DNA of 40,838 bases. It comes from Deltaproteobacteria bacterium. GTDB taxonomy: Bacteria > Desulfobacterota > DSM-4660 > Desulfatiglandales > Desulfatiglandaceae. The number at the start of each line of letters is the position of its first letter. Position 1 is the first letter of the stretch. Shown here piece by piece: positions 2,579-36,708 of this stretch. The notes beneath the pieces were generated by a model. The model searched no databases. It had not been told where the DNA came from and saw nothing but the letters and a program-made list of their open reading frames with translations. The stretch lies in assembly GCA_019307945.1 (NCBI GenBank), contig JAFDIS010000022.1:1-40838 (forward strand), given 5' to 3'. A program made the position numbers and the translations under genes.

Positions 2579-3262
2579 CTATTTCCACCACAGGAGGGGA
2601 TTGAAGCGGGTGTCGAGGTCGTAGGCATCCACTCCTTCCCTGGTTTTGAGAAGTGATACCACTTTGTAGGTGAGGGGGGTGGCGGCCGCCTCGTATGCCG
2701 ACTTGACGAGCCACTGGGTCGCGATCGCGCTGAACAGGGTCCCGGCCGGAATGCTCCCCCAAAAGGCGATGGTGATGAACACCATCGAATCGATCCCCTG
2801 CCCCACCAGGGTGGACCCGATGGTCCTGGTCCAGAGCCACCGGCCCCGGGTGGCCACCTTCATCTTGGCCAGGACAAAAGCGTTGACGAACTCCCCGGCC
2901 AGGTAAGCCAGAAAGGATGCGGCCAGGAGCCTGGGGGTGTACCCCAGGATCCGGTCATAGGCCGCCTGAGCCTCCCAGAACGGGGCCGCCGGGAGAACCC
3001 CGCCCAGCCAGAGGACCACTACCATCAGGAAATTGCAGCAAAACCCGAGCCAGATCACCCGGCGGGCCCGGTCATAACCGTACACCTCCGTGAGCACGTC
3101 CCCAACAATATAGCTCACGGGAAAAATGACCACCGCGACAGGGAGGACCAGTCCGAAGATCCGGATCAGTTTCACCGCCACTATGTTTGCAGTAAGGAGA
3201 CTCGTGACAAAAAGGCCCACGATCACCACGAAGTCCCACGAGTATCCGTTCCTGGTAGACAT
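2579..3262 (-). CDS. yhhQ: Queuosine precursor transporter, YhhQ/QPTR family
   Basis: 227-residue integral membrane protein with about six hydrophobic segments. Family landmarks are LLTANIVAVKLI (residues 19-30), the IVGDVLTEVYGYDRARRVIW block (about 52-71), ALPAAPFWEAQAAYDRIL-like central residues, and GQGIDSMVFITIAFWG near residues 154-169. The family (formerly DUF165) takes up preQ0/preQ1 or queuine for the queuosine modification of tRNA. It is read away from the thioredoxin gene. An AGGGTG a few bases before the ATG is a modest ribosome site. No preQ1 riboswitch consensus was recognised in the 288-base divergent region. Confidence 0.88.
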   Translation of the reverse strand: MSTRNGYSWDFVVIVGLFVTSLLTANIVAVKLIRIFGLVLPVAVVIFPVSYIVGDVLTEVYGYDRARRVIWLGFCCNFLMVVVLWLGGVLPAAPFWEAQAAYDRILGYTPRLLAASFLAYLAGEFVNAFVLAKMKVATRGRWLWTRTIGSTLVGQGIDSMVFITIAFWGSIPAGTLFSAIATQWLVKSAYEAAATPLTYKVVSLLKTREGVDAYDLDTRFNPLLWWK

Positions 3263-30510: not shown

Positions 30511-31494
30511 GTGGCGGGCCGCAACGGTACGAACTTGAAAGTGGAGGGCCTGCGCAAGTATTTCCCGGTGCGCAAAGGTTTCTTCCAGCGGGTCTCGGGC
30601 TGGGTCAAGGCGGTTGACGGCGTGGACTTCGAGATCCCCCAGGGAAAGACCTTGGGGCTGGTTGGTGAGAGCGGATGCGGCAAGTCCACGGTGGCCCGTC
30701 TCGTCCTGAAACTGCTCGAGCCCGATCTGGGCAGGATCATATTCCAGGGGCGGGATATCGGGCCCCTTTCCTCATCGGAGATGAGGCCCCTGAGGCGCAG
30801 GATGCAGATCGTGTTCCAGGACCCCTACGGGTCCCTGAATCCCCGCATGACCGTGGGCCAATCCATCGAAGAAGGCCTGCGGACCGTGGGCATAAGCCCC
30901 AGGGCCCGGAAAGATAGGGTGCTGGGGCTCCTGGAAATGGTGGGACTGCCTGCCGAGGCAGCGGACCGATATCCCCATGAGTTCAGCGGCGGCCAGCGGC
31001 AGCGGGTGGGCATCGCCCGGGCCCTGAGCGTGGAGCCTTCGCTGGTGATCTGCGACGAGCCTGTCTCGGCCCTGGATGTCTCCATCCAGGCGCAGGTGAT
31101 CAATCTCCTCAATGATCTCCAGGAGAGATTCGGTCTGAGCTATCTTTTCATTGCGCACGATCTCAACGTGGTGGGATACATGAGCGACCGGGTGGCGGTT
31201 ATGTACCTGGGGAAGATCATGGAGTACGCTCCAGCCGAAATCCTGTTCGAAAACCCGGCCCATCCCTATACCAGGGCCCTGTTGGCCGCCGCCCCGGACC
31301 CGGATCCCGTGACCGGCAAGGGACTTGCAGTGCTGAGCGGGGAAGTGCCGAGCCCCCTGGACCCGCCGCCCGGGTGCAGGTTCCAGGGGAGGTGTCCGCT
31401 GGTGGAGGACCGGTGCCGAAAGGAGGATATTTCCATGTATGTCTTGGCCCCGGGTCACGAGGTGCGTTGCTGGAAGGCGGCCCGTGAGGAATGA
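30511..31494 (+). CDS. ABC transporter ATP-binding protein, DppF/OppF family
   Basis: 327-residue ATPase. Walker [10 protein letters not shown] (residues 52-60), [17 protein letters not shown] (the DppF-type Q-loop region), signature [15 protein letters not shown], Walker [15 protein letters not shown] and IAHDLNVV. The C-terminal domain has [18 protein letters not shown], again with the cysteine pattern. It starts with GTG 30511 behind AAAGGAGG, three bases after DppD. The stop is 15 bases before the likely promoter of the tRNA genes, so this gene closes the transporter operon. Confidence 0.94.
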
Positions 31495-31548: not shown

Positions 31549-31622
31549 TGGGGGATCGTATAGTGGCAATACGACGGGTTCTGGCCCCGTTAACCGAGGT
31601 TCGAATCCTCGTCCCCCAGCCA
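31549..31622 (+). tRNA. tRNA-Gln (anticodon CTG)
   Basis: The acceptor stem TGGGGGA (31549-31555) pairs with TCCCCCA (31612-31618). The D-stem GTAT/ATAC, the anticodon stem ACGGG/CCCGT with loop TTCTGGC, and the T-arm CGAGG-TTCGAAT-CCTCG all fold. The anticodon CTG reads CAG, hence glutamine. CCA is encoded at 31620-31622. The fold was done by hand and every stem pairs. Confidence 0.95.
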
Positions 31623-31662: not shown

Positions 31663-31738
31663 GGTCCCATCGTCTAGCGGTCTAGGATAACGGCCTCTCA
31701 CGCCGTAGACACGGGTTCGAGTCCCGTTGGGACCACCA
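31663..31738 (+). tRNA. tRNA-Glu (anticodon CTC)
   Basis: The acceptor stem GGTCCCA (31663-31669) pairs with TGGGACC (31728-31734), with discriminator A and encoded CCA (31736-31738). The D-region CGTCTAGCGGTCTAGGATA is typical of glutamate tRNAs. The anticodon stem ACGGC/GCCGT has loop CTCTCAC with anticodon CTC, reading GAG. The T-arm ACGGG-TTCGAGT-CCCGT is perfect. The lower-GC kinase segment starts right behind it. Confidence 0.95.
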
Positions 31739-31775
31739 ATACTTAGCCTTCATCCCCACTCTAAAGTGGACCCCA

Positions 31776-34580
31776 ATGTCAAGACCACCTTTGGATGTCA
31801 TTTCCCTTGACACTCAAGACCAAATTATCCTAAGCTTTTTCCACGATAAACAACTTTTAACCATGATCATAACACGAATCATGGCCTTGCCGAGTAAAGT
31901 AAAATATTCAATAGCAGGGATGTTCATCTTCCCCTGCTTCGCCCGCCTGGTCCTTCATGGTACGGGGCATGAACATGCCTGGTACAGATACCTCATCCCG
32001 CTATTTGTAGGCGCGAGCGCCGGATTCCTCACAGGTTTGATGAAGGATAGGTGGAGCGCGCTTCGTGAGAAACTGCAATTCCTAGTCCAGGAGAAGACAA
32101 AGGATCTCAGCCGGGAAGTAATGCGACGCGGGCGCGCAGAGGGAAAATTGCAGCGCCTGAACACCTTCCTGCTTGCCACCCGGAATATCAACCAGCTTAT
32201 TGTCAGGGAAAGGGATCGGGAGAAGCTGATTCAGGGGGCGTGTGAATGTCTGGCTGGGGCAAGAAATTTCCAACAGATCTGGATCGTCCTGTCGGATGAA
32301 AGGGGTGGGGTGGTTTCCTTTGCCGGCGCTGGAATGAAGGGGGACGTGGCCCTGATGGAGAAAGCCGTCGGGAATGGGGACAGTCTCTATTGCATTAGAT
32401 CGGCAATGGAAAACCCCGGCGTGACATTGGTGAACGAACCCTCCGAGCGTTGTAAGTCGTGCCCCATGCAGGCAAGGGGGGCTTGTGGTAAGGCCATTGC
32501 CGTGCGGATAGAATACAAGGGAAAGACGTACGGGGTCATGACTGCTTCCGGTCCTGAATCAATCATAGAAGACGAGGAGGAACTCTCTCTTTTTTGTGAG
32601 CTTGCCTCTGATTTAGGATTTGCACTTTACGGAATTGAAGCGGAGGAAAAAGAGCGAGCAATACGTCAAGCACTCCAGGAAAGCGAGGAAAGGTTTCGTG
32701 CATTTATCGGGGCCACCACTTTCGAAGGCATTATCCTGAACCGGGAAGGGGTAATCGCGGACATAAACGATCAGTTCGCAAAAATGTACGGATACGAGCG
32801 GGAAGAGCTCATAGGCATGAAGGCGCTGGATACCATAGCACCGGAAAGCCGGGATTACGTCAGAAAAATGATCCAAGAGCGGCACGAGGAGCCTTACGAG
32901 GCAGTGGCACTCAGGAAAGACGGATCTACCTTTCCCATAGAAGTCCATGCAAGAACCATCAATTACCGCGGCAAGACCGTCAGGGCCGCCGCTATCCGTG
33001 ACATGACCGAGCGCAAGCTCGTGGAGGAATCTCTCAAACAAGAGGAGGAGAAATTCCGGGTACTTGTTGAAAAAGCACCCTTCGGGATATCCCTTGTCCG
33101 AAAAGACGGACGTTATACCTACGTGAATCCGAAGTTTGTGGAAACATTCGGATACAGGCTTGAAGATATCCCCACGGGCAGGGATTGGTTCGAAAAGGCC
33201 TTCCCGGACGAAGGCTACAGGAAGAAGGTCGTTTCAACTTGGCTCAATGACTTGAAAAGGTTTGAAATCGGGCAAGTGAGGCAGCAGACATTTGACGTTA
33301 CCTGCAGTGACGGCTCTCAAAAAAAGATCCTTTTCAGGTCGGTCACATTGGCCGGGGGCCACCAGTTTATTATTTACGAAGATATTACGGAAAAGGAGAA
33401 TCTGGAAAGGCAATACCAGCATGCACAGAAAATGGAAGCCGTTGGTACCCTTGCGGGTGGTATAGCGCATGATTTCAACAACCTGCTCCAGGCCATCCTG
33501 GGATATACCCAGATCCTTCTTCTAGACAGGGAGGAGAAGGATGCAGCATATGCCAGGCTCAAGGAAATCGAAAAGTCGGCACGGAGGGCGAGTGAGCTGA
33601 CCCAACAGATCCTTACCTTCAGCCGAAAGGTGGAGAGCGTTCGTCGGCCCATGGATCTCAATGAAGAGGTCAGGCAGGTGGTGAAGCTCCTGAAGAGAAC
33701 CATTCCCAAGATGATAGAGATAGAGCTTTTCTTCGAAAAAGATTTAGGGATTATTAACGCGGACCCGGCCCAGGTGGAGCAGATCATCATGAACATAGCG
33801 GTCAACGCCAGGGACGCCATGCCCGAAGGGGGAAAATTGCTCATCGAGACCGAGAATATAGTCCTTGACGAGGAATACTGCAAGACTCACCTTGGCGCCT
33901 CCCCAGGCAAATATGCGCTCCTCAGAATTTCCGATACGGGATCGGGCATGGACAAAGAAACCCTCGAGCATATATTCGAACCCTTTTTTACGACCAAGGA
34001 TATAGGAAGGGGTACCGGTCTTGGTCTGGCAATGGTGTACGGCATTGTCAAAGAGCACGGCGGATATATCATGTGTTACAGCGAACCTGGAACCGGAACC
34101 GAATTCAAGGTCTATTTCCCGGTCATTGAGCAAGAAGAACCGTTTCGCATGGGAGATGACCGGGACGGAGGTCCCGACAGTATACCCGGCGGCACGGAAG
34201 TTGTTTTGCTGGTGGATGACGAGCAGAGTATCCTTGACACGGCCAAGGAGATGCTGGGACGTTTCGGATACAGGGTAATCACTGCCGGTAGCGGGGAAGA
34301 CGCCATTCATACGGTGAAAAGGGCCGTCACAGGAGACAAGGACACACCCTTTCCCGACATTGTGATTCTTGATCTGAGCATGCCCGGGATGGGAGGGCAT
34401 GCATGCCTTGAAAGGCTGTTGGAGATGCATCCGGACATGAAAATTGTCATCGCCAGCGGTTATTCGGTAAACGGAGCCGCAAACAACACTTTGAAGGCCG
34501 GGGCGAAGGGGTTCATCTCAAAACCCTACAGGCTGGAAGAGATGCTCCGAAAAGTAAGGCGGATCCTTGATGAAAAATAA
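31776..34580 (+). CDS. Hybrid sensor histidine kinase (2TM-GAF-PAS-PAS-HisKA-HATPase-REC)
   Basis: 934 residues. Two hydrophobic segments (about 44-62 and 70-87) with a short loop lead into a coiled coil, a GAF-type domain (about 125-290, with the cysteine set [12 protein letters not shown]), and two PAS domains (about 300-415 and 420-540). Then come HisKA with His565 in [11 protein letters not shown], an HATPase ([27 protein letters not shown]) and a C-terminal receiver with Asp866 ([12 protein letters not shown]) and ISKPYRL. Active as a phosphorelay kinase by sequence. GC content is visibly lower than in the flanking genes. The start is unsure: the first 35 codons hold a TTGACA (31807) and IS-end-like sequence, so ATG 31863 or 31881 may be the true start. 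No output partner is adjacent. Confidence 0.9.
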
Positions 34581-34584
34581 GAAT

Positions 34585-34884
34585 AGTCCGCAAGAACGCA
34601 AGAAAGCGGGGACGCATCTTGATCTGTGATTTATGTCGTAATGTTATTCCAAGACCAAGCCATGGCAGGGCCTGCTGCGTTGCCTGCCTGTGCGTCTCCG
34701 CACGCAGACAGGCGCTTGAGATTTACTCATTGCGGGGCACCGACAAGTACGCCTCTTGCAGATCCGGTGCCCTTTGCGGGGATTCCTGAATCCTCCCGTC
34801 GCCTAGCACCTGCCTGCCGCAGGCCGCCTGCATCGGGCTGGCAGGTCTCCACCAAACTCGGAATTCGCTCAATTTGGGTCCCCG
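34585..34884 (+). repeat. Repeat-rich relic, possibly of an IS200-like REP-associated transposase unit
   Basis: The 310 bases between the kinase and the amtB remnant hold no intact gene. They contain inverted repeats: a palindromic core built on TGCGT/ACGCA within the stretch 34688-34713, and ACCTGCC/GGCAGGT at roughly 34808-34846. The lead-in GGGGACGCATCTTGATCTG...GTCGTAATG...ATTCCAAGACC resembles, from memory, the 5' flank of IS200-like REP-associated tyrosine transposase genes. A frame with RRQALEIYSLRGTDKYASCRSG follows, but no transposase catalytic motif. The identification is weak; the repeats themselves are visible. Confidence 0.4.
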
Positions 34885-34890
34885 CCTGGC

Positions 34891-35244
34891 ATGGCCGGGA
34901 TCGGGTGTTATTTCGGGATCATGGCCAAGAACAGGTTCGGGTATGATGACAGCCTGGACGTGGTGGGGATTCATGGCGTGGGCGGTGTGCTGGGACTGCC
35001 GGCGGCCGGCCTTTTTGCCTCGCTCGGCGTGAACCGCGATGGCGCAAACGGGCTTTTCTTCGGTAATCCCGCACAATTCGGCATACAAGCCCTTGCAGTT
35101 CTTGTGACCATCGTCTATGCTTTCGCAGTCAGTTGGGTCCTTCTCAAGGTGGTGGACGGACTCTTCGGCCTGCGTGTTAGCGAGAAGGATGAAGTGGGCG
35201 GGCTTGATTTGTTGGAACACGATGAAACCGCATACAATTTCTAA
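34891..35244 (+). pseudogene. amtB: Ammonium transporter AmtB, C-terminal remnant
   Basis: 117 residues that match only the last quarter of AmtB. They are AGIGCYFGIMAKNRFGYDDSLDVVGIHGVGGVLGLPAAGLFA, with the pore-region DxxDVxGxHGVGG that carries the second pore histidine, then the last hydrophobic helix (IQALAVLVTIVYAFAVSWVLLKVVDGLFGLRV) and the cytoplasmic tail. A whole AmtB has about 400 residues and eleven helices; the first 280 or so are missing and repeat-like DNA lies in their place. Such a fragment cannot form an ammonium channel. It is placed 31 bases before glnB, the normal operon partner. Confidence 0.88.
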
Positions 35245-35272: not shown

Positions 35273-35614
<342 letters not shown>

Positions 35615-35744: not shown

Positions 35745-35919
35745 GGGACGATGGGACCTTTCCGAGCGGTCTTTTTTCATCCTGCATTTCCCCTTTCCTT
35801 GACAGGCGCGGCTCAAGCAGGCAAAAAGGAACCTTAAGACTTCGCGGACAAGGAATCACGAAGCCGGCATTGTGGCGGATACCCAGGCCGATACAATGAA
35901 TTCATGTGGGGGGGAAAAG

Positions 35920-36708
35920 ATGAAAGAGATCTGTCGTGATTTGCAGGAGGAGCAGGAGGCCCTGGACACCATCGTGGCACCGCTCAGCCGAAAGGAGTGG
36001 GACACGATAACGCCTTTCATCGGATGGTCCATCAAATATGAGATCGCGCACCTGGCCTTCTGGGACATGGCCGCCAAGCTCGCAGCTACGGACGAGCAGG
36101 CCTTCAGGGGACTGATCGAGAGCATGTTTGCTTCCGAGGAGGCTTACAACGAATCCCAGCGGGAGCTTCGGGAGGCCGACCCCGCCTTTGTCATGGAATA
36201 CTGGCGAAGGGAGCGCAAGGCCCTGGTGGACGCCCTGGCCGCCAAGGGGCCGAAAGACCGCATCCCCTGGGTGGGTCCTACCATGAGCGCCCGATCCAAG
36301 GCTACGGCGCGCATCATGGAGACCTGGGCACATGGGCAGGATGTGGCCGATACCTTGGGTATCGAACGGGAGCCCACGGACCGGCTGCGGCACGTGGCCC
36401 ACCTCGGGGTGACGACCTTCGGGTGGAGTCACGCCAACCGGGGCCTGGAAGTGCCTGACGTTGCCGTACGGGTGGAACTAACGGGTCCTTCCGGGGATTT
36501 GTGGACATGGGGGCCGGAGGACGCAGAAGAGTCCATCAAGGGGCCGGCCCTGGACTTCTGTCTCGTGGTTGTTCAGCGTCGGCACGTGGAGGACACAAGC
36601 CTCCTGGTGAAGGGCGACGTGGCCCGGAATTGGATGCTGATCGCCCAGGCTTTTGCGGGTCCTCCGGTGGACGGACCCAGACCCGGGGAGCGCGTCCTGC
36701 GGAAATGA
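35920..36708 (+). CDS. DinB-like / TIGR03084-type metal-binding protein
   Basis: 262 residues from ATG 35920. The N-terminal half resembles the DinB/maleylpyruvate-isomerase helical bundle: EEQEALDTIVAPLSRKEWDTITPFIGWSIKYEIAHLAFWD (with a first metal-binding His) and METWAHGQDVADTLG (a second His). The C-terminal half, with VRVELTGPSGDLWTWGPEDAEESIKG and DFCLVVVQRRHVEDTSL, matches the TIGR03084 arrangement. Function is unknown; related enzymes use low-molecular-weight thiols. Upstream in-frame starts GTG 35872 and ATG 35899 would add residues unlike the family. It is read as a single gene between two non-coding gaps. Confidence 0.65.
   Translation: MKEICRDLQEEQEALDTIVAPLSRKEWDTITPFIGWSIKYEIAHLAFWDMAAKLAATDEQAFRGLIESMFASEEAYNESQRELREADPAFVMEYWRRERKALVDALAAKGPKDRIPWVGPTMSARSKATARIMETWAHGQDVADTLGIEREPTDRLRHVAHLGVTTFGWSHANRGLEVPDVAVRVELTGPSGDLWTWGPEDAEESIKGPALDFCLVVVQRRHVEDTSLLVKGDVARNWMLIAQAFAGPPVDGPRPGERVLRK

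Follow-up and report, generated by a model that had tools for sequence, protein, structure and literature searches.

Probable patchwork and gene decay behind tRNA-Glu in a genome of Desulfatiglandaceae

Gene content of the locus

The window, i.e. the whole 40,838-nucleotide stretch analysed, is contig C174 of a 185-contig, 4.16-Mb assembly with a completeness of 98.5% and a contamination of 3.7%. Through ORF and Pfam analysis, a hybrid histidine kinase has been identified as the sole gene between tRNA-Glu and amtB (Table 1). The parts that an earlier note had described behind this tRNA, namely a kinase of low GC content, repeats at both edges, the tail of amtB and glnB, are all present.

Table 1. 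Features around tRNA-Glu in the window, with the amtB remnants found on other contigs of the same genome
Feature	Position	Strand	Evidence and remarks
oppF-like gene (dipeptide-type ABC transporter)	end at 31494		
tRNA-Gln (CTG)	31549..31622	+	ARAGORN, Rfam RF00005
tRNA-Glu (CTC), left border of the variable stretch	31663..31738	+	ARAGORN, Rfam RF00005
IS3-family insertion sequence, one-end relic	about 31763..31793	+	matches the first 26-35 bp of four element ends (G035, G056) with 88-93% identity
Hybrid histidine kinase ORF	31776..34580	+	Pfam; start more likely 31863
Dispersed intergenic repeat copy	34666..34879	unassigned (.)	matches elsewhere in the genome
amtB remnant, last 117 codons, open frame	34891..35244	+	PF00909 positions 284-399 of 399 (283-399 in the survey of remnants); before intact glnB
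glnB (PII protein), intact	35276..35614	+	PF00543 positions 1-102 of 102
MDMPI_N-domain gene	35872..36708		
amtB remnant, G000:C111	L043:7783-8052		PF00909 311-399; intact glnB and glnD lie behind it
amtB remnant, G000:C120	L044:2821-3383		PF00909 222-391; two frames, one stop

The hybrid histidine kinase

In silico analysis of the kinase frame revealed two PAS domains, HisKA, HATPase_c and a receiver domain above the Pfam cut-off, and a GAF match below it. The first ATG of the frame falls within the end of the insertion sequence, and a later start (Table 1) is therefore more likely. Promoter-like sites are not in excess (three found against a mean of 2.5 in shuffled sequences). The frame is open throughout, which points to a probably functional protein, and two hydrophobic stretches seen by eye close to the N-terminus suggest that it is membrane-anchored.

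The GC content of the kinase is 0.514, whereas 159 overlapping 2.8-kb windows drawn from the rest of the stretch average 0.609 (sd 0.011), which confirms the lower GC noticed earlier. As evidence of import this is weak, since the region around a related kinase on contig C10 of the same genome falls to 0.512, and values between 0.42 and 0.59 are seen for related kinases in the fetched loci. The kinase half is roughly 37-62% identical to other kinases of the same genome and family. The sensor half was matched (E 1e-10) in 43 of the 395 phylum genomes sampled, its own included; the best full-length match outside its own genome has 40% identity, and no close orthologue is present among the 395, a distribution that fits an accessory gene.

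The left edge: an end of an IS3-family element

The motif at the left edge, AAAGTGGACCCCAATGTCAAG, has one exact copy in the genome and two further copies at 2-3 mismatches, with none for the reversed control. One of these two, on contig C24, is part of an open coding frame and hence probably a chance match. On contig C56 (G000:C56:24600-24640) the IS-end motif occurs twice, the copies facing each other in a palindrome of about 40 bp. No adjoining transposase was seen, and the palindrome resembles a solo remnant or miniature element.

A search of 148 genomes for the core motif GTGGACCCCAATGTCAAGACCA, with up to 2 mismatches allowed, found it in five of them, the present one counted, and the reversed control gave none. 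Four copies, two each in G035 and G056, are mutually homologous from the start of the motif and for 82-284 bp inwards; their homology starts at positions 1497-1501, where 1501 is the first position of the motif in these loci. The copy on G035:C98 adjoins a transposase with HTH_21 and rve domains, a pair taken here to denote the IS3 family. Since the window matches the ends of these elements, one of them with such a transposase, the proposal that the left edge resembles an IS3-type terminal repeat proves right. No IS3 transposase ORF was found in this part of the window, where the kinase fills the space and the best element match covers one end only; a clear second end of the G035 element copy was looked for and not found.

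The right edge: a dispersed repeat

Besides the copy in the window, the genome has 22 places that match the segment 34666-34916, counted as match rows within query positions 2928-3178. The repeat family measures roughly 200 bp and contains palindromic segments. There is no Rfam match in the repeat, and Y1_Tnp occurs in the genome only as two 31-position fragments, around neither of which the repeat query matched anything. The description of this edge as repeat-rich DNA therefore holds, and its assignment to a REP-associated transposase unit is rejected, since no transposase could be linked to the repeat. Several copies terminate at CTCAATTTGGGT, whose last base in the window is 34879; the amtB homology starts between this point and 34891. 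Thus, the break in amtB sits at the end of the dispersed repeat, at most 12 nt from where the repeat usually stops.

Repeats of this family disturb the assembly, as indicated by five of the 22 other copies, which are no more than 100 bp away from the end of their contig (C98, C82, C17, C27, C144). These copies, and the fact that the two sides are not adjacent in the relatives read, would agree with a misjoin at the repeat, through which the tRNA-kinase side and the amtB-glnB side were brought together from different places in the genome. Such an error is nevertheless quite unlikely: the longest exact match between the window copy and the fetched copies is 39 nt, little for a misjoin given the final k-mer sizes in common use, and no 5' part of amtB was found on the other contigs of the genome. 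Since no contig carries this part, amtB would be broken even if the contig were misjoined.

The amtB remnant and glnB

That only the last 117 codons of amtB remain before an intact glnB, as first noted, is borne out by the PF00909 and PF00543 matches: the stub lacks the full-length membrane domain of AmtB, and GlnB carries a complete P-II domain. The C-terminal piece of amtB corresponds to the last membrane helices and the PII-binding tail. The stub contains no stop codon and keeps 30 of the 30 columns that are conserved in 90% or more of a set of 111 full genes. Its pn/ps against the closest relatives is 0.26-0.32 (0.26 to G005), compared with 0.284 as the median for full genes, 5-95% range 0.186-0.361 (1543 pairs of similar divergence); selection on the stub was measured by pn/ps only, dS being mostly saturated. 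As the stub bears no signs of decay, either amtB was truncated recently or selection still acts on what is left of it.

In G014 the stub starts with ATG at the same alignment column as that of the window, both having been cut at this methionine for the alignment, and a methionine is found there in three of the 111 full genes. Two codons upstream, a glycine invariant in all 111 full genes has been lost in both stubs. The shared methionine start is the only hint that a small protein may have been retained; against retention, no ribosome-binding site was seen for the window stub, the C111 remnant has no such methionine start, and the locus in G014 is decaying too. A mini-AmtB as a general feature was rejected, since 78 of the 80 loci fetched with the stub sequence reach the first 40 residues of the reference (among them G005 with its internal amtB deletion) and the remaining two begin at contig ends. 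That the stub could act as a small protein tethering GlnB to the membrane in a cell without an ammonium channel is highly improbable, although its open, fully conserved frame and the matching ATG in G014 would suit such a role. Most likely the stub is a dead remnant and not an ammonium channel, while the intact glnB is presumably kept by selection.

Loss of amtB in the genome and the family

Truncated amtB occurs in three places of the genome, none of which includes the first 220 profile positions, and there is no full copy; two intact glnB genes are present. By eye, the C120 remnant lies behind the apparent start of a broken glnB.

Among 46 family genomes, amtB is full in 21, partial in two, represented by remnants only in four (G000, which is the present genome, G005, G014 and G021) and absent from 19; several of these genomes are incomplete (down to 58%), and some absences may be assembly gaps. 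G024 was counted as full from two matches within one 473-aa frame, and the two partial cases are G051, which starts at a contig end, and G060. In G005 the amtB frame lacks about positions 75-230, in G014 positions 283-399 are kept before a glnD shortened by internal deletions, and in G021 and G035 (neighbouring family) small amtB fragments are kept together with the very end before glnB. The shortened G005 gene is in frame at the joint and is found on two slightly differing contig ends (L147:1-616, corresponding to G005:C70, and L146, corresponding to G005:C390). The truncation in the window is one of several amtB losses in the family.

Canonical PII genes (E <1e-25) were identified in all four remnant-only genomes and in nine of the 19 genomes without amtB. 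These 13 of 46 genomes, with canonical PII and no full-length amtB match, may be natural cases of PII lacking its usual membrane partner, which is a mildly useful pattern. Judged by titles or the opening of abstracts, none of the literature found was on the subject of amtB/glnB pseudogenes, and none was found on loss of the ammonium transporter together with P-II in sulfate-reducing bacteria.

The tRNA-Glu site in relatives

Twenty stretches were fetched, 19 of them for the tRNA-Glu site; in three of these tRNA-Gln alone was called, leaving 16 relatives. The genomes compared all lie outside the genus. The order oppF, tRNA-Gln, tRNA-Glu is kept in 12 of the 16 relatives, and the DNA that follows differs in nearly all of them. 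Recurring content is limited to a glnS-like gene (G005, G036), an integrase-like pair (G018, G035) and a distant kinase similarity between G015 and the window. Integrase genes occur behind tRNA-Glu in three relatives: a tyrosine integrase lies directly behind it in G018 (L100) and G009 (L109), and G035 (L111) carries a fragment of an integrase gene with a phage portal gene after it. The far borders of these three stretches were not found. The sparse recurring content and the integrases indicate a site that varies throughout the group.

The window lacks the DNA that stands behind tRNA-Glu in several relatives. By eye, glnS is placed behind tRNA-Glu in G036 and farther off in G005, and no tRNA remnant was seen upstream of the glnS of the present genome (C144). 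As no such remnant was seen, nothing is concluded about glnS as the original neighbour.

Neither amtB nor glnB was found in the readable 0.4-5.8 kb behind tRNA-Glu in any of the 16 relatives. Elsewhere, full amtB stands 27-132 nt before glnB, measured between profile matches, in 13 family genomes (G002, G003, G008, G009, G011, G015, G020, G044, G045, G048, G050, G052 and G056). At tRNA-Glu the amtB-glnB piece is consequently a newcomer, or the contig is misjoined. This bears directly on the history proposed in the earlier note, in which the kinase would have come in behind tRNA-Glu through an IS-mediated event that also cost the adjoining amtB its promoter and about 280 codons from its start. 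The IS3-type end at the left edge, a low-GC kinase without a close orthologue and the cut in amtB at the right edge all agree with that proposal, and the IS3 end and the truncation stand as described. The ancestral order tRNA-Glu, amtB, glnB on which it relied is not supported, having been found in none of the 16 relatives in the stretches read, and neither is a simple insertion of the kinase into such an order; either the amtB-glnB piece has also moved or the contig is misjoined. Moreover, there is a single IS end, the right edge consists of a different repeat, and the low GC is common to the C10 kinase region; the IS-mediated history is therefore unlikely.

The integrases of the relatives raise the alternative that an integrative element or prophage attached at the 3' end of tRNA-Glu and that later deletions removed its integrase and far repeat. 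The tyrosine integrases of G018 and G009 and the integrase fragment with phage portal gene of G035 would suit such an origin, as would the position of the sequence change in the window, only a few bases from the end of the tRNA. On the other hand, no integrase gene lies next to tRNA-Glu in the window or between it and amtB. Allowing up to 3 mismatches, no second tRNA-Glu 3' end was found in the assembled genome, in agreement with the earlier remark that no tRNA 3' end is repeated at the far side, and none was found behind the tRNA or the integrases in the stretches read from relatives. Classical tRNA integration is accordingly not shown, the far repeat not having been found, and is kept as an improbable rival.

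Origin of the locus

The best explanation, with a probability of about 0.7, is a rearrangement-prone spot behind tRNA-Glu that has gathered unrelated pieces through separate events. It builds on the observed parts and their homologies, the absence of a full amtB from a 98.5% complete assembly and the variable DNA in relatives, and from these the order and mechanism may be reconstructed as follows: (i) the DNA present behind tRNA-Glu in several relatives would have been lost; (ii) an IS3-family element would have visited the site and then been lost, leaving one end; (iii) the orphan hybrid histidine kinase, an intact and probably membrane-anchored phosphorelay sensor, may have arrived or may already have been present; (iv) the 3' part of an amtB-glnB operon may have been carried to the site, or have stayed there, through recombination or deletion at the dispersed repeat. 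Three points count against this patchwork, namely a comparison confined to genomes of other genera, in which an empty site could not show, the lack of decay signs in the stub, and the small probability that remains for a misjoin at the repeat.

The stretch behind tRNA-Glu is thus composed of real parts, its insertion sequence had been identified correctly and its history had been read partly wrongly. It is an ordinary case of patchwork and decaying genes beside a tRNA, and the locus itself is of little consequence.

Comparison with known systems

The locus resembles four known systems, and differs from each of them. As in the amtB-glnB (glnK-amtB type) operon, here compared with 13 family genomes, the tail of amtB stands directly before an intact glnB; in contrast to that operon, amtB has lost its first 280 or so codons and its 5' region, and the copy lies at another genomic place. 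With IS3-family insertion sequences the stretch shares about 30 bp of one end, whereas the transposase and the second end are missing. The kinase has the complete domain set of the hybrid histidine kinases of this bacterial group, although its sensor part has no close orthologue. Finally, while the locus contains neither the integrase nor the repeated tRNA 3' end of tRNA-associated genomic islands, it resembles them in the variable DNA directly behind a tRNA, and relatives carry integrases at the same tRNA.
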